The notes beneath the pieces were generated by a model. It saw only the letters and a program-made list of their open reading frames with translations, was not told where the DNA came from and ran no database searches. Shown here one piece after another: positions 11,945 through 61,109 of a stretch of DNA of 64,000 nt. How positions within the stretch are numbered: the first letter of the stretch is position 1; each line of letters begins with the position of its first letter. The DNA lies in contig OX387604.1 in the NCBI GenBank assembly GCA_947568835.1, positions 13,173,076 to 13,237,075 on the forward strand, given 5' to 3'. This DNA comes from Protonemura montana (lineage: Eukaryota; Arthropoda; Insecta; Plecoptera; Nemouridae). The position numbers were made by a program, and so were the translations under genes.

Positions 11945-14900
11945 ATGATAATTATTTTTCAGTGTTTTTTGATATTCGGATATCTGATTGCTGCAAACTC
12001 TAAAAATGTTGACAGGTGACTTTATTCCCTTTAAATATTCTCCGCAACTAAACACTTTTCTCCTTTTGCGATGATAAGGGAAAGCTGGCAAAGCTAACCT
12101 TAATTTCAACCATTGCAATCACGTAACCATCTTTTTAACATGGGTTACTACTTTTAAGCAACGCTCCACAACGTGCTGATAAATTAAATATTTCTTCAGG
12201 GGGCATCGTGCGTTATTAAGACCACTTGAAATTTTGTTTCTAGTTTAGTATCAACAACTCATCCCTTCGATGTCCTGATCTTCACCCAACACTGGCCGAT
12301 CACAGTTTGCCTGGCATGGAAAGAGCTGGAGCCAGACCACACTTGCGTCTTACCTACCCTCAAAGATATATGGACCGTCCATGGTATTTGGTATGTGATT
12401 CTATCAAGTTTGTTTATTACTTTGTGTATGGTTATGTTAGGTTCGATGTTGATTCGAAATCAATAAAGAATTGTTCAATTCTGTTAACACCACGAAGTAG
12501 GATGCGTTTAAGCCTGGTGCTAATGGAAGGAAGGCGCTTGTGGAAGGTTGCACCGTTTGAGCACCGCTCTGCCTGCTTGCACCAAGTTTCAACAGACCTT
12601 TTCAACATGCATGCACTAGTAGTTCTTAGCAATGCACTCAGACTTCGAGGTTGACTGATTTTAGATCACAGCAAATTAATTTCATGGACTATTTAATGCA
12701 GATAATACATGTTAATAGTTAAAATATCATCATAATAGCATAGCAACATTATTATAACTGCTACAATGTATCACGTCTACTGTCTACAATATGAACTATG
12801 GACTGTTAAACTAGCTGCCTCTGCGAGTTGCAAACGAGCACGTAGCGCATGTATGTTATTAAGATGATGTTCGAACTCAGCATCGTGCGCAGAGCAGTTT
12901 ACTGCTACTACTAGCGCTTGTACGTTCCAACCAAACACTAGTTAGTTGCAAGCTTCATTCTTTTCTTAAGCGCTATGCTTTAATCTAAACCCATCCTTGT
13001 TTAATGGCCATAGACCATAGAATTTGAAATATTGGTTAGACAGAAGCTGATTGCTTTTAGGAACCTGCTCGCTTGCTGCGGTTGGCTTAGCGTGTAACGC
13101 TTATATTTATTTGTATTTGTATTTATTATTATTATCCCGTTGACTAGAACATTATACAGAGTATGGGTATCGTCAGATTGTTAATGCTAATTTGCTAATA
13201 CTAACGTTGAATAATGCTATAAAATGCTATTGTACATAATGATAAGTAATAGATGTTCAATGATAATAAAATAATAATGTGAGGGCTTGGTGGAGGGATG
13301 GAGGCTATTAGGAGGTATCTTGATTGAGGTATTCTGAGAGGGTAGTAGCTAGCGACAAAACTGGCGCCAAATTTGAATGGCTTGAATTCCAGCTGGCAAT
13401 ATGTAGGGAAACCACGGCTGGGCATCTAACCAACATAAGCGTTACCCATTCTCCATGTGGTTTTGTCACAACTACAGGTGACATGCTCGCAGTCGCCCAC
13501 AAGTGATTGGCTTCTACGTAATCTATATTTCAATTTCTATAAAGGAACATATGAAGTGTGCAATATGCTGTGGTGAGCAAAGTGTGTCTTGTGAATGATT
13601 GATTAATTACTTGCTGTACTTTTTGGCTGCCAGCTTTGTTCAGTGTATGGAAATTGTTCAACAAAACAACTTCTCAGGCAGTTCTTTGCACATTACTATA
13701 TGGCCTTTCAACTGCTTTATTTACTACCTACTATGCAGTGTAACTTACTAACTTTCTACTGGAAAACTTGCTATGTAGCATTACACATTTATTGCTGATG
13801 GTCATGATGGTCATGATTATTGGTTATTCCCATTATCTTTTTTGGGAAGCCAAAGCCTCCAAAGCCTTTTAAGTCTGATCAGGAGAGGCTTGGAGTCTGT
13901 AAGGAACTATTTAAGGAAACTATTATACCATTGAATAGAGGAGTACTGAGGAAACTATAGAGAGATTCAAACATGCTAACAAGATTAAAGGCATCAATCC
14001 TCCTTTTGGCAAATTTTTACACCTGACATATTCACGGGTTTCTCCCATTTTCAATCAGGCATGTGTCCACGACCAAGTCTTCGAAACTGCATAGCCGGAG
14101 TCTCCCACACTCATAATGCTATGCGACCTTGATCTCAGTTACTTTACATTTCAGACATTACTTGTGACATTATTTGTCGAGACCAAGTACACATAGAATA
14201 GCCAAACCAGCCAAGCCCTTAGTTGTTTTTATATTACTTTTTCTAGGTAAAAACTTTTTTCATCAGCATCTAAGACATATTTCTGATTGACAGGCCTACA
14301 AAATTGGGAACAATTGGCCCACAATTTTGCAACAACACCTGGCCATTTGACCCAAAACAACTAGCTGCTATCGAACCTCAACTGGAACAGTATTGGGGCA
14401 ACGTGCATTCTGGCAGTCGCTATGCGCTTTGGCAACACGAGTGGGCGAAACATGGCACATGTGCTGCCCAGCTAACAGCGCTCAACTCTGAAGTAGACTA
14501 CTTTGGTCAGGGTCTCAAGTGGATTTCTCAGTACAACATGGACACGGTGTTGAAGAAGGCTGGAATCCTTCCTGGATCAGAACATGATGCTCTCCAACTG
14601 AGCAATGCAGTGCACACGGTCCTTGGCATGGATGCTGCAATTGAATGCCTCACTGACAGAGTATGTTAACTAAAATTGGATTAAATTTGGTTGATTTCAT
14701 TATGGTTGTAGTCCAATAAAATTGTCTGCAAAGGTTTTGGGTTGGTTCCCCAGGAATTTCGGTTCCATGGAACCGTAATTCTGTAGTGTTCCAAATAGTT
14801 TCAATTTTTTACATATGCACAAGAAAAAAGATAAGTAATTATTAAATGAAGTGTTATTTTAAATATGCTGATAACATTAGTTTTGGATGTAGACAAGATA

Positions 14901-16143: not shown

Positions 16144-16885
16144 CAGTACGACCTACCTGCATGAAGAGGGTCCTGATGGGATTCTGATATGTTTTTCATA
16201 TTCAAACAGGTTGTATTTACCTGTATAAATGAACGTGTGTGTAAAGATTGTACAAAAACATGAATATACATATTATTTTCAATTTAATGAATGATTTTCA
16301 CTTGTCCTTATTCTCTAAATCTATAGTTTTAATGCAATAATCTGTGTATGCTACCCTGCTGCATCTGAAACAAACCACACTTTATAAAGAAATTACAACC
16401 AACGTCCTGAATATCATGACATGAACATACAAGCACTAATAATAATAATAGTGTTTATTAACAGTATACATTTAAAGACAATGTTATGTTTCGTCATGTA
16501 AATTTACAGGTAAATTACAGTCTAGATAAATTTCCTGTGGAATTTGGAGTTATGGACTTGTAGCTTGTATTTTCGTTCAGGTTCGGACACCTTCAAAATC
16601 TTGGGTAGACTTGTTCAAGACCAGCCATTGGCTCGCTGCTTTCTAGACGTCATTCTAGGCGCGACTTGTGTTATGGTTGGAGGTGGTTGGTGTAGAGTGG
16701 TGTAGAGCAAGATCGGTTCGTGGGAAGTTAGCCTCAGCCTTCGCCTTCAAAAGCTCGGAATTGCTCGGAATTGCTTAACAGACTATGTGAACGTACCGCA
16801 GTAAAAAAAGTGTGTACAAAAGGAACAGCACATAAATATTCCACTCTTAATAACACATGAAAGCAAATAGAAACTACATTGCATT
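16144..16885. other. Spacer between RNase T2 and the tandem array
   Basis: This holds the probable RNase T2 3' UTR, an AAT microsatellite at about 16438-16450 that could be the tail of a minus-strand retroelement, and unremarkable sequence up to the first, diverged array unit. Confidence 0.4.
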
Positions 16886-17758
16886 TTTCACAGATAATAG
16901 AACACGTGATGCGCTATCGATCCGTGATGGTCTAAATTTTTGGCCCAGCCCTGGACAAAAAAAGGCTAACTTTTTCAAAATTTTTGTTATCATTTATTTG
17001 CGAGAAAATGAAGGGGGGGTACTCCCTTGAAAATGTTACAGATGATAGAGTACGTGATGGGCTTTCGATCTGTGATGGTCTTAATTTTTGGCCCAGCCCT
17101 GGACAAAAACAGGCTAACTTTTTCAAAATTTTTGTTATCATTTATTTGCGAGAAAATGAAGGGGGGGTACTCCCTTGAAATTTTCACAGATGATAGAGTA
17201 CGTGATGAGCTTTTGATCTGTGATGGTCTCAATTTTTGGCCCAGCCCTGGACAAAAAAAGGCTAACTTTTTCAAAATTGTTGTTATCATTTATTTGCGAG
17301 AAAATGAAGGGGGGGTACTCCCTTGAAATTTTCACAGATGATAGAGTACGTGATGAGCTTTTGATCTGTGATGGTCTAAATATTTGGCCCAGCCCTGGAC
17401 AAAAAAAGGCTAACTTTTTCAAAATTGTTGTTATCATTTATTTGCGAGAAAATGAAGATGAAGGGGGGGTACTCCCTTGAAATTTTCACAGATGATAGAG
17501 TACGTGATGGGCTTTCGATCTGTGATGGTCTCTATTTTTGGCCCAGCCCTGGACAAAAAAAGGCTAACTTTTTCAAAATTTTTGTTATCATTTATTTGTG
17601 AGAAAATAAAGGGGGGGTACTCCCTTGAAATTTTCACAGATGATAGAGTACGTGATGGGCGTTCGATCCGTGATGGTCTGAATTTTTGGCCCAGCCCTGG
17701 ACAAAAAAAGGCTAACTTTTTCAAAATTTTTGTTATCATTTATTTGCGAGAAAATGAA

Positions 17759-17967
17759 GGGGGGGTACTCCCTTGAAATTTTCACAGATGATAGAGTACG
17801 TGATAGGCTTTCGATCCGTGAAGGTCTAAATTTTTGGCCCAGCCCTGGGCAGAAATGAGAATAAGCCTACAAAACTCATAAGCGCTAGCCTTCAAAAATA
17901 CGTGATGTACTGAACGAGACAGGCTAACAATAAAAAAATTTGGTTTTCATTTATTTGCGCGAAAATG
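17759..17967 (+). repeat. Long variant unit 1 of the tandem array
   Basis: This unit starts as a normal one with the AGGCTTTCGATCCGTGAAGG subtype. From CCCTGGGCAGAAATGAG it carries about 110 bases not found in normal units (including CATAAGCGCTAGCCTTC and a second ACGTGATGTACTGAAC), then rejoins at a CATTTATTTGCG end. It is nearly identical to the units at 18857 and 20256. Confidence 0.9.
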
Positions 17968-18856
17968 AAGGGGGGATACTCCCTTGAAATTTTCACAGAT
18001 GATAGAGTACGTGATGGGCTTTCGATCTGTGATGGTCTAAATTTTTGGCCCAGCCCTGGACAAAAAAAGGCTAACTTTTTCAAAATTTTTGTTATCATTT
18101 ATTTGCGAGAAAATGAAGGGGGTAACTCCCTTGAAATTTTCACAGATGATAGAGTACGTGATGAGCTTTTGATCTGTGATGGTCTCAATTTTTGGCCCAG
18201 CCCTGGACAAAAAAAGGCTAACTTTTTCAAAATTGTTGTTATCATTTATTTGCGAGAAAATGAAGGGGGGGTACTCCCTTGAAATTTTCACAGATGATAG
18301 AGTACGTGATGAGCTTTTGATCTGTGATGGTCTCAATTTTTGGCCCACCCCTGGACAAAAAAAGGCTAACTTTTTCAAAATTGTTGTTATCATTTATTTG
18401 CGAAAAAATGAAGGGGGGGTACTCCCTTGAAATTTTCACAGATGATAGAGTACGTGATGGGCTTTCGATCTGTGATGGTCTAAATTTTTGGCCCAGCCCT
18501 GGACAAAAAATGGCAAACTTTTTCAAAATTGTTGTTATCATTTATTTGCGAGAAAATGAAGGGGGGGTACTCCCTTGAAATTTGCACAGATGATAGAGTA
18601 CGTGATGAGCTTTTGATCTGTGATGGTCTCAATTTTTGGCCCAGCCCTGGACAAAAAAAGGCTAACTTTTTCAAAATTGTTGTTATCATTTATTTGCGAG
18701 AAAATGAAGGGGAGGTACTCCCTTGAAATTTTCACAGATGATAGAGTACGTGATGGGCTTTCGATCTGTGATGGTCTGAATTTTTGGCCCAGCCCTGGAC
18801 AAAAAAAGGCTAACTTTTTCAAAATTTTTGTTATCATTTATTTGCGAGAAAATGAA

Positions 18857-19069
18857 GGGGGGGTACTCCCTTGAAATTTTCACAGATGATAGAGTACGTG
18901 ATAGGCTTTCGATCCGTGAAGGTCTAAACTTTTGGCCCAGCCCTGGGCAGAAATGAGAATAAGCCTACAAAACTCATAAGCGCTAGCCTTCAAAAATACG
19001 TGATGTACTGAACGAGACAGGCTAACAATAAAAAAATTTGGTTTTCATTTATTTGCGCGAAAATGAAGG
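18857..19069 (+). repeat. Long variant unit 2 of the tandem array
   Basis: Second copy of the longer unit, with the same subtype lead-in and the same extra segment. It lies about 1.1 kb after the first variant, with six normal units between them. Confidence 0.9.
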
Positions 19070-20255
19070 GGGGGTTACTCCCTTGAAATTTTCACAGATG
19101 ATAGAGTACGTGATGGGCTTTTGATCTATGATGGTCTCAATTTTTGGCCCAGCCCTGGACAAAAAAAGGCTAACTTTTTCAAAATTGTTGTTATCATTTA
19201 TTTGCGAGAAAATGAAGGGGGGGTACTCCCTTGAAATTTTCACAGATGATAGAGTACGTGATGAGCTTTTGATCTGTGATGGTCTCAATTTTTGGCCCAG
19301 CCCTGGACAAAAAAAGGCTAACTTTTTCAAAATTGTTGTTATCATTTATTTGCGCGAAAATGAAGGGGGGGTACTCCCTTGAAATTTTCACAGATGATAG
19401 AGTACGTGATGGGCTTTCGATCTGTGATGGTCTAAATTTTTGGCCCAGCCCTGGACAAAAAAAGGCTAACTTTTTCAAAATTTTTGTTATCATTCATTTG
19501 CGAGAAAATGTAGGGGGGGTACTTCCTTGAAATTTTCACAGATGATAGAGTACGTGATGAGCTTTTGATCTGTGATGGTCTCAATTTTTAGCCCAGCCCT
19601 GGACAAAAATAGGCAAACTTTTTCAAAATTGTTGTTATCATTTATTTGCGAGAAAATGAAGGGGGGGTACTCCCTTGAAATTTTCACAGATGATAGAGTA
19701 CGTGATGAGCTTTTGATCTGTGATGGTCTAAATTTTTGGCCCAGCCCTGGACAAAAAAAGGCTAACTTTGTCAAAATTTTTGTTATCATTTATTTGCGAG
19801 AAAATGAAGGGGGGGTACTCCCTTGAAATTTTCACAGATGATAGAGTACGTGATGGGCTTTTGATCTGTGATGGTCTAAATTTTTGGCCCAGCCCTGGAC
19901 AAAAAAAGGCTAACTTTTTCAAAATTGTTGTTATCATTTATTTGCGAGAAAATGAAGGGGGGGTACTCCCTTGAAATTTTCACAGATGATAGAGTACGTG
20001 ATGGGCTTTCGATCTGTGATGGTCTAAATTTTTGGCCCAGCCCTGGACAAAAAATGGCAAACTTTTTCAAAATTGTTGTTATCATTTATTTGCGAGAAAA
20101 TGAAGGGGGGGGGTACTCCCTTGAAATTTGCACAGATGATAGAGTACGTGATGAGCTTTTGATCTGTGATGGTCTCAATTTTTGGCCCAGCCCTGGACAA
20201 AAAAAGGCTAACTTTTTCAAAATTTTTGTTATCATTTATTTGCGAGAAAATGAAG

Positions 20256-20465
20256 GGGGGGTACTCCCTTGAAATTTTCACAGATGATAGAGTACGTGAT
20301 AGGCTTTCGATCCGTGAAGGTCTAAACTTTTGGCCCAGCCCTGGGCAGAAATGAGAATAAGCCTACAAAACTCATAAGCGCTAGCCTTCAAAAATACGTG
20401 ATGTACTGAACGAGACAGGCTAACAATAAAAAAATTTGGTTTTTATTTATTTGCGAGAAAATGAA
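20256..20465 (+). repeat. Long variant unit 3 of the tandem array
   Basis: Third copy of the longer unit, about 1.4 kb after the second with eight normal units between them. Two ordinary units and a cut one follow before the array ends. Confidence 0.9.
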
Positions 20466-20787
20466 GGGGGGGTACTCCCTTGAAATTTTTACAGATGATA
20501 GAGTACGTGATGGGCTTTCGATCTGTGATGGTCTAAATTTTTGGCCTAGCCCTGGACAAAAAAAGGCTAACTTTTTCAAAATTTTTGTTATCATTTATTT
20601 GCGAGAAAATGAAGGGGGGGTACTCCCTTGAAATTTTCACAGATGATAGAGTACGTGATGGGCTTTCGATCTGTGATGGTCTTAATTTTTGGCCCAGCCC
20701 TGGACAAAAAAAGGCTAACTTTTTCAAAATTTTTGTTATCATTTATTTGCGAGAAAATAAAGGGGGGGTACTCCCTTGAAATTTTCT

Positions 20788-20914: not shown

Positions 20915-23737
20915 ATGACCGGCAGCGAGAGTTTTGTTAATGCGAAATCAGCCAACAGTTTGTGTTGTTTCGAGTTCTTCAACAATAAACAGGAAAAAAG
21001 CCATATATTAGCATGCTGTTGCAATTGTGAAGACTTGGATGCTGCTGCTGACAGGTGAGTCTTACAACACTGTCATAACCTCACACTCTGAATTCTTAAA
21101 TTTATGTGCTTTCATTTTAGAGATTTTATTCTTTAGAGACCACTCAAAATTATGTTGATTCTAGGCTGTTGGTATGCGAGAAAGTTCCATTATCACGGCT
21201 GTCGGGGCTAGCGAGCACTTTGCAGGATCGGCTTCGAATACCATGGCGTGGTGGAGCAAAACAAATATCTATTGACTCGGCTCTACCTATAATTATCTTA
21301 CCAATTTGTGCATACATAGCAGCCCAAAGCCTCCTTAGCACTGTGATAGTTTTTACTATTACTGCTATTGCTTTTTACTATGCACACCAAATTATTTTGT
21401 CACATCTTCCTAAAACTAAATTTTTTGTTGTTTGGACTGTCACCTCAGTAGTATTATTACTTTTTGTTCTGGAAATGAATGTTGTTCCTCTACTTGAAAT
21501 TTTACCTGAAGAAAACTTTGTACTAGTAGGATTAGTATTGTCTGCAATTTGGTGTGCTCATAAAACCCGAATTAAAGCCATTTCTAACCACGTAACTCGC
21601 ACTGGCTCCCCTGAAACTGCCACCGAGGTAGCCTGTGCCGTATGTCACAAGCGAATTCCACCTAGGACATATCACTGCCACATTTGCCAGGCCTGTGTAC
21701 TTAAGCGAGATCACCACAATGTATGGTCAGTACCTTGAAATATGATAAATAAGTCCAGTAAAACTGCCAAATATCAATGTTTTAAAAATATGTTTGTAAT
21801 CTGGTTTTTTTCAGGCTCGACTGTTGTGTTGGTGACAAAAATCTTCTCCTGTATATTCTGGCATTATTGTTCAGTTTTGGGGCTCTCACATATGGAGCAA
21901 TTTTGACACTGACATCGGTATGCCACCCATTCTTCTTTCTAAATGCAGTCCTACTACCTGATGACTGCAGCGATGTCTACCATGACTTAGAGTATGTATT
22001 CAAGACTCTCTTTGTTCCTAGACATGCCAGCAAGACTAGGTTCTATGATTTATAAGAAGGGTTCATTAAATAATTAGTTCTTCAATGTGTTTGCTGGGAA
22101 ATTTTGGTTTCTCTCAAGTTCGTACCCAAGTGTAAAGAGTAGGTTTACTCCTGGACTCATAAAACGGTCCCGTCTAAAAATTTCAAACTCTCGAGTTCGT
22201 TAGAAGGAATTGAGATGAGAGTTGTAGTGCACATGACATGTCACCGGGGGCGTGCTGTCAGGGCATGCAGCCATGTAACGCATGCAACGCATGCCCACTT
22301 GCGCACTACCTATTTTTATTATTGTACTCTCAAAATGTCAAGCCGGTTCACAAATTTTGTTGTTTCAAAACACCAAGTAGTGTTTTAGTTTTTTATAGCA
22401 AATATTTTCGCTTTTTCATTTTTGCGTGACGTCACTTGGCGATGTTCACCCAACTAAGCATCGCCAATTGACGTATTTTCTGACGGAAACATAGCGCTTT
22501 CAGCACAGGCAGGAAGGAGGAGGATTCGTATTGCGTACTGGCGTTGAGAGGCTCAGGATTGCTAAGCCCTGAGCAGCTTAGCTGCCCGCGCTCACGTGCC
22601 CTCGAAAATGTTTGGTAACAGTAGTAAAAATCATGATACCAGCATAAAAATTTGTATGAGATTTCCATCTCATCTTACTCGCCTTAAATACGTAGATTTG
22701 AAGATCAAGAAAACCCCCAATCCTTCCTGTATTGCCTCTTTATGAGACACACTTCTGTGTCTCTACTTTTCCAATAGAAAGAAAAATAATAGTTTTTGTA
22801 TCACCTCCCAATCAACCCAAGTCCCAATTTGTTTTTATGGTAATTCTTTCAATTAGTCGGAGATAACATAAACAGGAAATAGGTTTGTTACATATGGTGA
22901 TTACTTTAGAACAATGGGAAAGATCAACTAAGTTTGACAAATTTCTACAGCCAAACAAAGAGCCCAGGTACCACAAGGCCAATGCAGATTTGCTACCATT
23001 GTGACATATAATTATGCACTTATGAACATAATGATATTCACTGTGAATTTAAGGGATATGGTGAGACAAGAACCCACTGACAGGGCAACTGGTTTGTCAT
23101 TTAAAGAAGCACGTGGCATGCCATGTGCTCGATAGGTACTTACCTCTCTTCCCAATACTGTCTAATGATTCATCTAACTAATGCTAGGGACTTAAACTTT
23201 TTGAGTGGATGGTTTTCTGAGTCCAGGAGTGTACATTGTTGGTAAACAATTTTTGGTCAAGACTGAACAATTTAAAATGAGCCCTTGGTTGTTTCTTCTT
23301 CTTTTTATGTTTTCATTGCCTGCAAAGGAACCATTGGCTTGAAAGTCTGGATAATTTGGTGGAAAAATATGAACAAAAGGAATTGCAATCTTGGCAAGAC
23401 AAAGCCCACAATGTCATGTCATGGAGTTATATGTGATTTATTTGTGATTTATAGTTTTATGATGATAAAAAAAATTTGAACATTAACATTGTTTCTTGCT
23501 TGTAGAATCGCATTGTGCTTTGTGGGTGCCATCTACTGCCTGCTGCTGTCAGCTGTACTTCTTATTCAACTGATTCATCAGTGCTGGACTATTTCTCTGG
23601 GAATCACTGGTCAGGAATGGCGCGGGCTGCCTGCTTCCGAAAAACGGGTGCTCGGCGTTACTTCTTTGCGGCCTCACAGCCGCGGAGTTCCTCGCAATTG
23701 GGCAGCATTTCTGTGTCCTGTTCTGCATCAAAATTGA
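20915..23737 (+). CDS. ZDHHC23: ZDHHC23-type palmitoyltransferase with DHHN in place of DHHC
   Basis: Multi-pass membrane protein of the DHHC S-acyltransferase family, which forms a Cys-acyl intermediate and passes the fatty acid to substrate cysteines. Exons 20915-21054, 21165-21725, 21815-21991 and 23506-23737 give 369 residues. ZDHHC23 traits are the N-terminal LCCFE...LACCCNCEDLD block, DRLRIPWRGGAK, paired hydrophobic helices before and after the cysteine-rich domain, and the arrangement of that domain. The domain reads CAVC, HCHIC, CVLKRDHHNVW, then CCVGDKN after the splice, so the zinc-binding Cys and His are intact but the catalytic Cys of DHHC is Asn (codon AAT at about 21718). A Cys codon (TGT or TGC) differs from AAT by at least two bases, so one base-call error cannot explain it. 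The protein is probably inactive as an acyltransferase unless another cysteine substitutes. The C-terminus is short. Confidence 0.9.
21992..23505 (+). other. ZDHHC23 intron 3
   Basis: This 1.5-kb intron separates the exon ending in HDL and a split Glu codon from the last exon. It has a small cluster of GCATG repeats near 22260-22300. No mobile element or embedded gene was recognised. Confidence 0.4.
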
Positions 23738-26700
23738 TTGAAGAATGCTATGTTTGCATAATGTGAACTATGTGATGGTAACTACGTTCTTAAATTGTGA
23801 TTGCTATTAATTAATTGTGATGTCAGAACAGCATAGTTTTCATATTAAGAAATCTCAATATTTGCATCACAATATGTTTATGTTTCTTCGTTATTAGAAA
23901 ATTACAGTATTTGTATAATGTGCACAGTTTATCTAGATCCATATCTATAAAAACTAAATTTTTATATAAATGGTTTCCACCTGTTTTTCAAAGCATTGAA
24001 AGTGTAGGTACACTGGTATTAAGCACTAAAGAGTTTTCATTGGAACAATTTTTGGCAGACATTTATATTTCGAAAAGCAACAGGTTTCAATTTCAGTCTC
24101 TGATATTTACACTGTAGTTATATTGGTACTCTTAACTCAGCCAAATTGCTGACAAAGTTATGACATGAAGCCTAAAGTTTGTTAAAATTAGGGTATGTTT
24201 GCACAAATTCAGAGTCCTTGAATAATTCAGATTTAAATAATGCTAAATAGTGCACACTAGTCTCTGCAATTTAGTCTCCTAGCCAAATATGTCCAAAGAC
24301 TGAACAAATATAGGTAGAAGGTGAACTACTATATTATTGTATCTTTTGCTGTATGGCTTGGGTGGAAGAAGAGTTGAAAACTGTTTCTGAACTAATAAAG
24401 TATTAATTTATTTGTACATGCGTTGTGTTTTGAAAATTAGGCTTTTTAGAGCATTCTTCGATGGCAGATAGGGAAGGGAAGGGGTCCTAAACACTTAATT
24501 ATGGGTCTTAGACAGGTATAAGTAAATGAAGGCCACTTGCAAATCAAGACAGTTAACCCGATAATAGTCGCGCCTCCGTTTGTGACGTTAGTAGTTCCGG
24601 CCAAACGTTTCGACCGCATCATCTAAAATTTGCAAATAACCACAGGGTGACGTTTTTACTGCAAACAAAGGGGAGCTAATCATTGATGTAAAGCATACAA
24701 GGTGACAAATGATCTAATTTTATTTTTTTATGTTTATTTAGGTCTAGATTCTGATGAAGGAACACAGATCACAGTTCTCTTTAGGTGCTATGTTTTGTTG
24801 CAAGTTACCTTTTGATTATAAAAGTTATTTTTTTATTACACAAGTTTAATTTTGACTATACAAGTATTCTTTTGATTACACAATTGAACTTTTGGTAAGA
24901 TCACGCACTATCGTCTCGTTCTACTTCTTGGGTACTCTGCAAATTAAGTGGGTGCATTGGATACAAATGGTAGTAGTTTTTCTGTTGTTTTGTAAGAGCA
25001 GAAAGCAGTTGTATTATGCCACCACTGTATATTGAAGAATGGTCAAAGCACTTCGATAATAAACACGACTCAAAATAATCACTCAGATAATATGTTTTGC
25101 TGGCCTTAGAAGTCGCGTAGCGGTCAAAAAGACTAGGAAACCAAACAAACCATCTTATCCTAATGCAATTCTGCAGAAAACTAAATCGGGTATTGCTCGG
25201 TAGGTATGTCAAGCCAGACAGCTTGAGTATGCACAATTTACAAATACCAACTGTTAAAAGAAGAACCCGGTTTAAAAGACGGCGTCACGACTTCTCTCGC
25301 GTTAAAATTGCTCGGATACATTCCTAGGGACTCGTGTTTACTTTAGAATGAAACATTTTGGAATTGCATTATACGAAAAGGTCTTCACACCACCATTGAA
25401 AGAAACATGGCCTCCCTCTCCCCCACCACAAGTTTTTTAGTCTGCTGTAATTTTGAATCGAGGTATTATTTGGTTATTTTTCACTCAGTTGAGCTTACTA
25501 AGGACCATATAGAAATGTTAAAAATATCATTGCTATCAGTTTGGATTGGTCGTAGAACCATTGCGTGGGGTTTATTTTGAGGCCCTGGCGAGAAGAAGTT
25601 AAGGGCCTTTGCCTGGCTATATAAATCGGCAGTATCTTATCATTTTGGATCCTGTTTTAAAATGGTTGCATTTTACTGGAACGATGTTATCTTTTCTGAT
25701 TTTGATTAATATTTTCTTACACAATAGTTCACTAGAGGGCCCCGGTGCTGTTTAAGTTTGGAGGCGCTCGGTACGGGAATTAAGACCGGTTTTCTGGACC
25801 AGTTCGCCTCTAGCCTCCTTAGACCTTATGAAACGATGCACGTAATTACATTATCATCACAATCACCTTAAAATGTTTGTAATATTATTCACGTGATTAA
25901 TGCTAAAGGTAAAAAGTCGACAACAAAATATCACTCAATAAAGCACTGAAATGGAATATAAGCAATTTCGAGCTCTATTCAAAACTACATTTTTTTTTTT
26001 ATGTCTAAAGTCTAAATTATAATCTGATGAGCACTGCACTGGACTGCTGTAATGGAACAATATTTTGGAAGTCCCTCAACTGGCAATTGGATCTTCGCCA
26101 ACCTGCCGACCTGCCGGTAAATTTCTTTGTGACACTTGGGTCGGTTGAACCATGTCATTTCTTGACATCATATGTACTTCAAAGAAAATGCAGACTAATA
26201 ATTGTGGCAGATCTTGTTTCTTGGGCCTGCCTGCATTTTTTTTTACTAATTTGAAAAAAATTGCAAACGTTTACTGACAATCATTTTGTCAATTAATTTT
26301 TAGCCGACATGAGTTCAAGCATTTTAAATGGCTTCTAAATAATAAATAAATATCCTCCTCCTCGGCTCTGTAGTAAAACAATTTTGTGGGGATTGCAGTA
26401 CACACGTCTAAAACTTCTGCCAACGTAGATTAATAGTCATCTAGCTGGAAAATTACACCTCTAGTGTACTGTTTTAAAATGTCATAAAGTAGTCATAGTC
26501 ATAAAGTATGACTAGGCCATCACTGCTATTAAACTCCAAGGAACTATCTAATATAATATTTGAAATTGAAAGATTACTCGGTACCTCACTTTAAAATGGG
26601 TTTTTAAAAGTTGCACCGTTACAAAGCTATTGGCTGTCCGAATCGAACGTTTCGCCTATGAGCCAATAGAACGTGTTCTTTAAATCAGCTCGATTTGAAT

Positions 26701-33508: not shown

Positions 33509-49064
<15,556 letters not shown>

Positions 49065-51432: not shown

Positions 51433-54400
51433 ATGTCTCTTTTGCGAACAGCGAAGTTTTGCCGGAATTTTCCAAATTTTGTTCGTTACAGTGCTGCACA
51501 TGTAGTGCGTGCTCATCTCTTCACAACTACAAATACTCGAAGGTAAGTACTTTATTGGGACTTTAAGGTTTGTCAGTAACTTATGTCCATATAACCAGAT
51601 AGTCCATCACTCCTTCGACTACTCACAGACGTGCAGCAAACTTAACCTACCCACTCTCTCACAGTGTAGGGAGCTGACCGACCTCACATATCTACACAAC
51701 TTCTCAACAACAATATCGACACCCATAGACTGCTATCTAAAATCTGCTTCGCAAGACCGTCCAGGCAAACTCGTAATTACCATCCTTTCAGGCCGCCAAA
51801 GAGTGGGATTGATATCCACAAGCACACCCGGGTGCATCAAAAGACTAATGACTACCAACAATAGAATTACAGCTACCTGTCCTGACATCGACATCCTTTC
51901 GGACTCCTTCATGACTTACAAATCCTGACGTAAACTCCAAGATTAAACAGCTGCTCATTAAAACTTGTAAATGTATCATTTACCAACTGCATTATCTTGT
52001 GTTACCTCTTAATTTTAGCTTACGTTTGTAAATAATGTTTTTAATTGTTCATGTTTATATATACCATGTCCAATATCACACTTGTTGACTTGCCTCCATT
52101 GTTGATTAATAAACAATAATTATAATAATGTGTAATTGTATTAAATCTTGAGAATGTCACATATCTGCTCTTGCAGAGTAATGGTGATGCCAGCATCTCA
52201 GCCAACAACCAACTCTTCTGGCTCCGATCTAGAGAAAACTCTCCGAAGATTGGACCAGGATGTACGCAGATCAGGTCGCATCTCTCAGCGTGAGCTTGAA
52301 GAAGCCCTTTCTGAGCTAAAATTAACAAGTATGTGCCTTGAATTGAAATTAAGGATGACCAAGAGTATAGTAGGTACAAAGAACATTTTGACCTAAGATT
52401 GCCAAAATATAATTTGATTACAGGTTCAGCTACCAGTTCTCAATCGCTGCTGATGATTCGCTGCTGTGGTAGTTTAGTGCCAGAAGAACCACCAGATGTG
52501 CGATCAAAGCTGGTTGAGGAAATATGGAGTACATTGTCAAAGCTGGGTAAGATAATTAATTCAAGTGCTAGGTTCCTGCCTTGGTCACCAGAAAACACAA
52601 TTTAATGGTTCTTTATGAAGGGTAGGTCAGTTTCAAAGGATATCTGATATTCAAGTTTTTATTTTGTTTTTCAAGGTGTTAAAATGGATATAAGTCACTA
52701 TAATGCACTTCTTCGAGTCTATTTGGAAAACGAGTACAAATTCTCTCCAACTCAGTTTCTCGCTCGACTATCTGCCGAAAAAATTGAACCAAACCGAGTG
52801 ACATACCAACGCCTCCTAGCACGCCATTGCCAACAAGCCGACATGGATGGAGCAGCTCACATCTTGCAGCAAATGAGGGATAACCACTGGCCCATCAACG
52901 AGGCGGTGTTTCACGCACTCATAACTGGGCATTGCCGAGCAGGAGACACAGCGAGCGCTAATGCCATTCTTGATGTCATGGCGCAAGCAGGGCTAGAACC
53001 CAGCACCGAAACGTACACAGTTTTGCTTTGCGGATATGCTCAACTAGGTGACATAGCTGGCCTGGAAAAAATATTGGAAGATTGCAAATCCAAAGATGTT
53101 TTCCTTGCCGATCGAGACTTTCTGGAGCTTGTTTACACACTGGCAGTGAACAAGCAAATAGAGCATGTGAATAAAATTCTAAATCTCATGCCCCGTTCCA
53201 TGGGCTACAATGTAGATGCCACTAACATGATTCTACGACTCGTGACTGCTGGGCATGCAGGCGTAGCTGAACAAATATTAGGCACAATGCCGAGATCTAC
53301 GCAGCCTGATGGAAGGTCTAGTCCTGTGGGAGCGTTTTTTCTACGTCATTTAGTGCAAACTTCGCAGCCTTCAGAAGTCATTCTCGAGACATGTAAACGA
53401 ATGGAGGAGTCTGGTTTAAATGACAGGGCACTGTTAATAGCAACGGAGCGCAGCCTTCAGCTTGGCAGAGTTGACCAAGCATTCACGTTTCTTAAGGCCC
53501 TCAAAGAGCGCGGCCTACCTTTGCGACAACACTACGTTTGGCCATTACTAACCCAGTTAAAGAGTGTTCCGACTGTTTTACAACGTTCCGTTTCGGAGCT
53601 AGGACTGTTGCCAGGAGCAGAGACCTTGAGAGACCACGTGATTCCGCAAATGGCCGATGACGATATAATAGGAGGGCTTTGCACTGTAGGAGTCTCTCCA
53701 GGCTCGGCTTGTTCAGCTTTGGTCCTTCACCAAGTCTCTAAAGATCAGCTGAGAGAGGCTGCACAAACTGGTCAGTGTTATGCCTGCCAACAAAATTACT
53801 AATGTGAAGAAGCTAAATTGTGTTGTGTATTGCAATCTCCGCTATTTTCTCTTCAGCATCTCGGCACCGAGCTATACACAATCCGGTGCTGTTACGACGC
53901 TCCATGTCGAATGCTTACTGTCGCACCAGAGATGCAGCTTCTTACGTTGCATTATTGCGACATTTGCATCGAACAGATCAGCAGCCTGCTGAGTTGGTGG
54001 GAGGCTTTTTGGTCGATGTTGCCTACACAGCTCGTAATGATAGACAAGTTTTGATGGTCACACTGCTTAAAGCTGTGGTTGAAGAGGGATTAAGTATAAG
54101 TACCTCTATGGCTGTACGTTTGGAAGAAAGACTTGGCCAAGATATGACAGCAGAAATCTCTTTGCTTGTCACTCAGCTAACAGCTGGGGACTTGGTCCCA
54201 GTTGTTAGTACGTCACAATCTGCACAACCGGTAAGATCATTTCTCTACAGTAGATTATCTTTCTGTCAAATAACATCTTGGCTTTCTTATGTATATTCTA
54301 TTATCTATGATTGTCGAAAATGTGTGGTTGTCTGTGGAGATCACAGAAGAGACATTTTTAAGGCAAGCCCCCAAAAATTCTATTTTGTATTTTGACAAGT

Positions 54401-57400
54401 GGCCATGTGGAGTTTAACTAGTCCAACAGTGCCGACCGAGTACAATTTTATACTTTAAAAATGAAGTAGATGTGAAACTTTTTGCCTTGGCCAGGCCTCA
54501 AAAAAGGTTAGATTTTAGAGGATTAAGTTCAGGTAAAAACTGTTTTAAAGTAGCTAGTGAAATCTCAAGCTTGTTGTGGACACCTTTGTGGCTGGTGTGG
54601 TCTGTAGACCGGGTCTGAAATGAGTTTCTTACAACAGCTTCAGGATCTGGCTGGCCTGGAACGAGCTAGAATTGCATTAGAAGGTAAAGGAGAACCGAGC
54701 ACAGCCATCAAGAAGCGTCTTTTGTCTGCTTACTGCCGCCGCAGAGAATTCAGCAAAGCTGAAGAAATAAAACTTAGCTTGGAAAAAGAGAATGTTACAT
54801 TCTCACCTGGCATGCTCGCCCAGCTTATTGAAATGTACTCTAGTAACGATCAGCTGGACTCTGCATTAAAATACAAGTCTGAACTGAACCGAACTGAACC
54901 TAGTTTTCGATTGGACCAATCAAAGATTGTCAAGTTGGCTGGGCTTATGATCAAAGAGGGTCATTTTGAAGGTAGGTGTTAATAGTTTTGCTTACCCACC
55001 ATTGTCCTCAATTCCTGATTCAAGTCTTTCTGTTGACCTCCATTTGCTACAGGAGTTATATGTGATTGTGTGGGTCTTCTTTCTAGATGGAATAAATTTG
55101 TTGCAATCTGAAGCACACCCAGAAGCGCCAGCCGAACAGTCGTTTACATACACAACAAACTGCTGGCGAATTCTGAATGGTCTAGCCGAACTTGGAAAAT
55201 TAGACGAATTGAAGCGAGTGTTCAGTGTACTCACAGAGAATAACTACATAATAGTCACTAACATTTTATTAGGACCTCTAGTGAAAGTGCATATTATCCG
55301 GTAAGATATTTGGGGCACGCTATTTTATTCCGTCCATTTCTCTTTTTCAACTCTTGAAAATTTCAACTCTATTTGATATCTCTGAAAGTTTATCTTATTT
55401 TTTAATTAAAATTTACCTTTCCAGTGAGGATTTACCAGCAGCAATGACTGAATTGGAACGATGTGTTCAGATGTATCGTGTTACTCCGTGGAAGAATGAG
55501 TTAACGTGTAAGCTGATTGCGGCAGAAAATGCTGAAGCTCTGCAGAAGCTGACAGATCTGAGCACGGCTGTTCACGGAGAAGTAAACAGCTTGTACGATC
55601 TGGTCTTTGGCTTCATTGAGTGTGGGCGATTACGACAGGCAAAGAAGATTCTGGAAGTGAGTTGCAATATATTTATATATCGGAATTCCTGGGAGACTCA
55701 AATACACATTGCAGATTTAACTGAATTTCGTTACATTTCAAACATATGGTAATATGTACCAAAATACCTCTCAATGACTCTTCTGAAGTTGAAAGCTATA
55801 TCTCATGTTAACTGTGTTGACAGATGCTGTATCATTAGAACTGAATCATTATGTTGATTTTGGCTTTGTGATTGGCTATATGTCTATGTTTCTTTTACGT
55901 ATGTTTCAAGAAAACTTATAGTGATCATTATATCTTAAAAGCTCACCACTGACCTTTTAAAATCTAGAGTTCCCATTATATTCACCATTGTTATAATCTC
56001 CAAGTATCTGCACCATTAGTAGAATTCATTTTGTAATATACTGAATATGTCTGCAGACTCCCGGTTTGGGCAGCAGGCCCCAGAGGATTACTTCAGCATG
56101 CCGGCGCTATCAGCAAGAGGGCCTAGTCGCACCGTTAGAAGGTCTTATTTCCGTCACGAAGAATCTGCCGCACGTCGTCGATCGTGCCGAGATCTATGCA
56201 CACTTACTGGATTCTTATAGTAAGCTGGATACTGTCTTCCCATCACAATTTCTCATTGAAGCTGTTGAGACCTCTAGCATTATTTGAATGGCATAAAATC
56301 AATGATTTCATGGGAACTGTTATCCACTTATAGGCAAAACAAATGACGTAGAGAAGGCAGTCGGACTCTGGACTCAAATGCAAGAAGAAGATGTTGTTAT
56401 ATCAGAACAGTTTTTAAGAGATCTGGCTAGCCTGATGGAGCGAAATGGCCAGAAAGCCTCCTTTGCTGTTCCGTTACAAAGTACCACGCAAACTAATCAA
56501 CCGGAAGCGTTTCGTGAAAAGCCGAGGCAAGCCAGGCAGCCGAAGGAAGTCAAACAAAGATTGGAACTTTCTGTTCTTCGGCGAGCTGTCCAGGAGGGTG
56601 ACCTTCAAGCTGCTACAGATGCTAAAAAAAGGTAAAACTAACACCATTGTTAGATAGAGTGCCTCAAGTTAGTCAAATTAAGCAAATTTTATAATGCTAA
56701 AAAGTAGATAGTTTTAACTAGCACATACAATATATTACGTTTACAAGCGATTACTAACAGTTTAAAATTTGAGGGGCTGACAGGGTTGGCGTAATACAAA
56801 AATCAAAATTTATTATATTTTGTGTCTGCACCACCTTGGACTCGAACTCAATATTGTCACGATTTAATTACAATTGAACTAGTAAGGTGGCTTCCATGAA
56901 AACAAGGTTTTGTTATCTTGTTGCCCACTGTCTCATTTGAAAAAATTGCAAAACTTGCCAAACCTTCTTGGTGATTCTTATATGTTGACTAGTATGGCTA
57001 CCCGGCGTCGCTCGGACTTAGATATTTGTATTAAAACTAATGTTAAGTTAAACTATTAATGTTTAACATAAATATATCAAATTATCTAACACACAAAATG
57101 TACTTAATGACAATATAGTTTTTTTGAGGACCTGGCGGTAGACAATATTTTTTGTTTCGCCTTTGCTATCTGCCACGATGTACAAATTAGATGGCTCCGT
57201 TGCTGTTGCTTCTCTCCTTGTCAGTTTCACCCATATTTCATGATCTCTTCCGTTTTGACACGGTTCTAAAAGGAGGAAACTATTTAGGCGATCAATATTT
57301 TGTTCCAAATTTGATGCAAGACAGATTATCAACTGTTCCCAGTTTTGAAGTGTTCGATCCTTTTCTAAGATAAGTTTTAAACCACTGCTTTCAAAGTTCG

Positions 57401-59672: not shown

Positions 59673-61109
59673 TTATTGTTTTGACAATATTCTATTGAGC
59701 CAGTCACATACCTTCTTCTCCTTGATCACTGGCCATATTTCTACTTCTCTTGCCTCAAGGAAGCCTTTGACAATTTCTTCTTTCTGGTAAATCCTCTTCC
59801 AGCTTTCCCGTAAAAAGTCCCCATAGCTCATTTCTGATGGTCCAATGGAGATTTCAATACATGACCGTTGTCCATTAGTTAGTGAGAGGTCAACCGTGTT
59901 TATTTTCTCTTGGTGCTGCTTGCCACACTCTGTATTCTGAATTGAGGAGTAGTCGGTAACTGGGCTGTTATTCAGCCGAGGAATGAAAGCCTGCCACCAA
60001 CGTCCTCCTTCATTCCTCACTTTTTGGTAGCAGTTGGAACATCCATTGCAAGGAAGTATGTAGCTCATTTTGGCTGTACATTCCCATGAAACCATGTCTG
60101 ATCCACGCAGTCCTGTGAAAACGTGTGCTGCAATAGCGCGAAACTTCCCCCAGTACCAGTACTTATCCTGTCTAGCAGTGGCGTCTCTAAATGCACCCCA
60201 ATGCACCCCTCCGAGGCAATAGACTGGTCGTGCTGGAGTGCCTCCCTCCAGTTCCATCTACAAGCAAAAGATGTACTGCTTTAGTGTCAAATTCAAAATA
60301 TGTCTAAGTTGTAACAGTATGTTCATTGTAAGAAAGGATACTTGCATCAAGAACTTGTACTTTGATGACGTCGACAGGTTTTTTTACTTCTCTAATGATT
60401 GCCATGGTAGCAACTGCTAGCAGTCCAACACGGCTGGTTTGTTTTGGAAATAGAGTGTGAGCGACAGTATTTGTTCGGCCAAGGGGTAGAACTCCAATTG
60501 GATAACGACTCTTATTGTCGTCCTTCCTGAGTAAACCAGTGACAGCCTCTGATAATGACCCATCTCCACCTGCTACCACAATTGCATCAGACGCCTCTTC
60601 AAATGTTTCGAGGAAAGTCCGCATCTGTCCTTCGTGCTCAGTGTGAATTACGTTAACCATGAGACCAGCCAAATTGAGAAGCGGAGCACAGTAACTTTCG
60701 AACTCGGCTTTTGCCTTCCTATAAAAGGAAACATACATCTTCAAAATATACGAATACAAGATAAGAATCCAAGAGCCAAGCGTTACGATTTTTAAATACC
60801 GTCTGTTTGCTGCTGGATTTAGCAGTACTGTGATTTGCCTTGGCTTCACACCTCCCGGTAAAGGCATACATCCAATAGCATTCGCTTCTTCACACAATGT
60901 TCTCATTAACTCCGATTCTCTAGAAAATTGGTGAGAGACCACAATGCAGTTGTTAGGTTATGGTGCATGTTCTTAATAAACCAACCCTTAACCGTGCAAT
61001 AAACTTACTCGTATTTAGATTGTATATATAAAATTCCGTAGGATACAGCTGCCAAGCCAACTGCGCTCTTCTTCCAATTGTTTCTTAACGTTCTTACGAT
61101 CCTAGCCAT
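59673..61109 (-). CDS. AGK: Acylglycerol kinase, mitochondrial
   Basis: Lipid kinase that makes phosphatidic and lysophosphatidic acid in mitochondria; the vertebrate protein is also a TIM22 translocase subunit. Exons in transcript order: 61109-61009, 60919-60800, 60718-60346, 60257-59673, giving 392 residues (human is about 30 longer). The N-terminus MARIVRTLRNNWKKSAVG with a following hydrophobic stretch matches the family's membrane anchor. The diacylglycerol kinase core has VLLNPAANRRKAKAEFE, VVAGGDGSLSEAVTGLLR (GGDGT is usual; Ser is a mild change) and YPIGVLPLGRTNTVAHTLF. Later blocks are GVHWGAFRDA and KYWYWGKFRAIAAHVF. The C-terminal REVEIWPVIKEKKVCDW aligns with the human end. Intron 3 appears to be GC-AG (GAT|GCAAGT), since no in-frame GT donor fits. 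It is head-to-head with TANGO1. Confidence 0.94.

Follow-up and report, generated by a model that had tools for sequence, protein, structure and literature searches.

We found that a gene of the plecopteran Protonemura montana encodes a DHHC-family protein in which the catalytic Cys of the motif is replaced by Asn. The gene lies in a stretch of 64,000 nucleotides that was analysed as a whole and is called the window here. Judged from its sequence, the product is probably a pseudoenzyme. As a fuller explanation, we tentatively favour a ZDHHC23-type DHHC pseudoenzyme that works as Drosophila GABPI does, as a Golgi partner of a β-1,4-GalNAc transferase.

Structure of the gene

The DHHC-domain gene has four exons on the forward strand (20915-23737), separated by GT-AG introns, and encodes 369 amino acids with no internal stop. 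Its features are as follows.

20915..21054, + strand: coding exon 1, cytosolic Cys-rich N-terminus (from the gene model; resembles the N-terminus of the human ZDHHC23 reference sequence described below)
21165..21725, + strand: coding exon 2, encoding the initial membrane segments and the larger part of the cysteine-rich domain, as far as DHHN and bases one and two of the Trp codon
21634..21827, + strand: cysteine-rich domain, bounded by its outermost zinc-ligand positions and split by the intron 21726-21814 (from alignment to DHHC20, whose presumed ligands give the labels)
21718..21720, + strand: codon AAT (Asn232) at the position of the catalytic Cys codon (read directly from the sequence)
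21815..21991, + strand: coding exon 3, remainder of the cysteine-rich domain and the next membrane segment
23506..23737, + strand: coding exon 4, which carries the final membrane segment, a C-terminal tail (TGQE, NWAAF) and the stop codon
24394..24399, + strand: AATAAA, a possible poly(A) signal, the sole AATAAA or ATTAAA in a scan of 23738-24700

Exon 2 ends at 21725 (TG/gtcagt) and exon 3 starts at 21815 (cag/G), which restores the Trp codon in frame. Splicing around the Asn codon was considered and rejected; four other GT dinucleotides lie within 21690-21740 (at 21695, 21697, 21721 and 21730), and by eye none of them is a better donor. A hydropathy scan of the 369-residue product showed several merged hydrophobic stretches and gave no definite count of membrane passes.

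The DHHN motif and the cysteine-rich domain

The motif is encoded by GAT CAC CAC followed by AAT (21718-21720) and therefore reads Asp-His-His-Asn, with Asn232 in place of Cys. This confirmed an earlier note on this DNA, which had described a DHHN signature; the codon is in frame and the gene is a real one. It had also been pointed out that AAT is at least two bases away from a Cys codon, and this holds for both TGT and TGC. RNA editing was considered as a source of Cys and was rejected by reasoning, since A-to-I changes on AAT would give Ser, Asp or Gly codons and never Cys.

The product matched the Pfam DHHC family with 75.6 bits over residues 201-331 (curated cut-off 28.7, E 5e-21) and human DHHC20 from the PDB with an E of 2.5e-11. 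Although DHHC20 (6bml, 7khm) belongs to another subfamily, the two proteins align without a gap across the zinc-ligand positions of the cysteine-rich domain. All eight of these positions are kept (C204, C207, H217, C218, C221, C224, H231 and C238), labelled according to the DHHC20 residues that we take to bind zinc. The same alignment places Asp229, His230 and Trp234 at conserved positions, whereas Asn232 falls at Cys156, the nucleophile of DHHC20. With these eight positions kept and the Trp codon rebuilt in frame, the cysteine-rich domain is complete and properly spliced, as the earlier note had claimed. This suggests that two zinc sites are retained in the product. That Cys is the nucleophile of the family and that its two zinc ions are structural agrees with the available portions of the literature.

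In the C-terminal part we found TGQE at 327 and NWAAF at 357, which we read as the conserved TTxE and C-terminal motifs. By homology the predicted protein belongs to the DHHC palmitoyltransferase family, but it does not carry the catalytic Cys of the enzymes. In the segment LDCCVG an extra Cys, C237 (21822-21824), immediately precedes the final zinc-ligand position; DHHC20 carries Asn at the site of this extra Cys.

Probable placement in the ZDHHC23 subfamily

The reference for this comparison was a human ZDHHC23 sequence written out without a database record. Against it the window protein scored 150 bits over its whole length, with 122 identities in 407 columns (30%). Residues 1-200 alone scored 97 bits, while 60 shuffles gave at most 21. 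Identity was 27/65 in the N-terminus, 32/95 in the first membrane part, 7/20 in the linker, 21/43 in the cysteine-rich domain, 25/78 in the later membrane part and 10/35 in the tail, so that the cysteine-rich domain is the segment most like the reference. The assignment to the ZDHHC23 type is therefore borne out, relative to this unverified reference sequence, by similarity that extends along the full length and beyond the shared domain, N-terminus included. The two proteins differ in that the human one has DHHC and the window one DHHN.

Human ZDHHC23 is listed among the enzymes with shown activity in Table 1 of PMC5359973. In the available part of PMC5364179, however, DHHC23 is said to be present in mice and to have no human homologue. 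We take this conflict to be a matter of naming.

DHHC genes elsewhere in the genome

We searched the genome (258,480,905 bases, 34 contigs) with the window protein and obtained 12 matches, which were four stretches of the window gene itself and eight other DHHC loci. The eight loci were at most 39% identical to the window protein, or 40-56% identical over only 36-43 residues. A second, Cys-bearing ZDHHC23 copy, which the earlier note had proposed to look for, was not among these 12 matches; one copy was found.

A Pfam DHHC search of the genome gave 15 matches in 12 genes. Because the window gene itself was absent from its matches this search is not exhaustive, and the 12 other DHHC genes are a lower bound. 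The fourth residue of the motif is Cys in all 12 of them, and by eye they resemble other fly DHHC groups. A scan of the genome with the motif as a pattern gave 92 forward and 110 reverse matches, against 53 and 57 with the pattern written backwards, which was too near chance to be used. A pattern search for relatives in other collections gave 23 matches in genome contigs and two in viral contigs, none of them a relative.

Neutral decay of the reading frame

We applied a neutral K80 model (kappa 2) to the frame of the window gene, with point changes only and no double-base mutation. At divergences of 0.05, 0.1 and 0.2 the chance of TGT becoming AAT was 2.8e-4, 9.9e-4 and 3.2e-3, and the chance that the remaining 368 codons stayed free of stops was 0.14, 0.025 and 0.0014. 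Adding indels at an assumed rate lowered the neutral chance of a still-open frame further. A codon changed twice by point mutation in a frame with no stop elsewhere is improbable, which makes unconstrained decay a poor fit. The open frame and the two-base change, taken together, support the view already put forward that this is not a young pseudogene.

A precedent in Drosophila GABPI

Natural DHHC proteins that lack the motif Cys are little described, and GABPI is the sole case met in the portions of the literature available. Such proteins can be missed, because the family survey in PMC5359973 discarded hits without a DHHC motif. Drosophila GABPI has Ser in place of the motif Cys and is described as likely inactive (PMC4192757). 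It is a six-pass protein without palmitoyltransferase activity, is required by a fly β-1,4-GalNAc transferase, and needs two short luminal domains (PMC6258472). It has been sited at the Golgi under the name CG17257 (PMC5364179). GABPI has also been called non-enzymatic, and in the same paper it is counted within the S-palmitoylome of fly cells (PMC9374236), which means either that it carries an acyl group itself or that it was caught for another reason.

GABPI, the pilot of beta4GalNAcTB, is like the window protein in being an insect DHHC-family protein without the motif Cys, but it has Ser where the window protein has Asn, and the likeness is one of description and not of sequence. GABPI is our candidate for the ZDHHC23-group protein of flies, given that the 12 other DHHC genes here look by eye like other fly groups. 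In our view the window gene probably encodes this insect's pseudoenzyme of the ZDHHC23/GABPI type, the GABPI link coming from general background and elimination and not from an alignment. Against placing GABPI in the ZDHHC23 group stands PMC6258472, which denies that GABPI has mammalian homologues. No statement of a GABPI-ZDHHC23 link was found in the available text of PMC4321029 or PMC9374236, and DHHC23 was absent from that of PMC4192757. Searches of the literature gave no insect ZDHHC23 pseudoenzyme among the matches listed and, for DHHN with palmitoyl, only Hedgehog-related titles among the matches listed. The DHHN gene is less surprising than it had looked, as an inactive DHHC protein is already described in insects, perhaps from the same gene; the earlier note had mentioned neither the insect origin of the DNA nor this protein.

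Candidate glycosyltransferase partners

A search of the genome with PF02709 gave seven matches. Two of these, L055 and L056, are β4GalT-like and carry Leu in place of the Tyr that precedes FGG in B4GALT1; the alignment to B4GALT1 covered L055. We assume that Leu before FGG in both corresponds to GalNAc transfer. Flies have two GalNAc-type β4-transferases. By this assumed meaning of the residue, two genes for GalNAc-type β4-transferases are probably present in the genome.

Discussion

Our preferred explanation is that the window gene encodes a GABPI-like pseudoenzyme. The cysteine-rich domain would still fold around two zinc ions. The usual two-step palmitoyl transfer would be blocked because Asn232 cannot accept an acyl group, and from this we infer a loss of activity. 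The most likely GABPI-like role would be that of a multi-pass Golgi protein enabling a β-1,4-N-acetylgalactosaminyltransferase in glycolipid synthesis, with site and partner presumed from GABPI, and such a task would need no Cys. The codon may have passed from TGT (Cys) through AGT (Ser, as in GABPI) to AAT (Asn). Some residual catalysis is conceivable in view of the retained Asp-His pair, Trp, TGQE and NWAAF. The earlier note had suggested a pseudoenzyme, and this stands as the best reading, given the lost acyl-accepting Cys and the precedent of GABPI; the loss of activity itself is a prediction. Its other suggestion, the use of another residue, was not positively supported by anything found here.

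The sequence features that speak for lost catalysis would also fit a pseudoenzyme with a different partner and a task outside glycosylation, as a scaffold, as a substrate presenter or as a subunit dimerised with an active DHHC enzyme. We regard this as possible but lean against it. Mammalian ZDHHC23, also called NIDD, binds neuronal NO synthase, which counts in its favour, as does the suggestion that GABPI presents substrates, made in view of its broad range of interactors (PMC9374236). However, nothing found here points to any particular partner. It is improbable, in our view, that the protein is an active enzyme without this Cys, whether through direct attack of the substrate thiol on acyl-CoA or through acylation of a different Cys, for instance C237. 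Yeast Swf1 and Pfa4 with Arg in place of the motif Cys lose only part of their activity (review PMC8107437), and like the window protein they have a DHHC fold without the Cys; unlike it, they are laboratory mutants from other subfamilies that retain part of their activity. The kept Asp, His, Trp and TGQE, and the position of C237 five residues beyond Asn232, would also suit an active enzyme. Yet C237 adjoins a zinc ligand and its reactivity is a supposition, and the Ser-bearing GABPI is reported to be inactive (PMC6258472; as likely so in PMC4192757).

That the gene is a recent pseudogene or is not expressed, with Asn as an early loss, seems quite improbable to us. The 148-bp repeat array, whose end lies 128 bases short of the ATG, could have interrupted the promoter, and a single double-base mutation, which lies outside our model, would make the change cheap. 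Against this stand the 369 open codons, the canonical splice sites, the kept zinc-ligand positions and the neutral model, which at a divergence of 0.1 gives 9.9e-4 for the codon change and 0.025 for a frame free of stops elsewhere. An error of sequencing or assembly at two adjacent bases is highly improbable, given that it would consist of two substitutions that leave the frame unchanged, at a site with no long homopolymer and in an assembly with chromosome-sized contigs.

A DHHN protein that keeps the rest of the active site is a second natural test of what the fold does without acyl transfer. If orthology with GABPI is true, the insect GABPI story would be joined to the ZDHHC23 group and the loss of the Cys would be dated. 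A broader proposal, which we consider speculative and unlikely, is that the insect ZDHHC23 lineage as a whole dropped catalysis (Ser in GABPI, Asn in this group) and became dedicated to partnering a Golgi glycosyltransferase, with the zinc sites, the Asp-His pair and the acyl-cavity Trp kept for regulatory binding of acyl-CoA or lipid without transfer.

Surroundings of the gene

Upstream of the gene, a tandem repeat with a 148-bp period occupies four blocks (16885-20786), and a 357-base piece of it gave at least 285 scored matches over the genome. The genome gave 130 matches to the cuticle family PF00379 and 129 to the odorant-receptor family PF02949, a combination that points to an insect; neither family had a match in the control genomes, which are no test of this reading. 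Several other frames in the window were assigned tentatively by eye. On the forward strand these are an RNase T2-like frame (14304-14669), two frames like a MYST-type histone acetyltransferase (34555-36003 and 41432-41854) and an LRPPRC-like PPR protein frame (52684-54982). On the reverse strand there are an acylglycerol kinase-like frame (60304-60942) and frames like pieces of a LINE reverse transcriptase and endonuclease (36032-37690), which adjoin the frame at 34555-36003.
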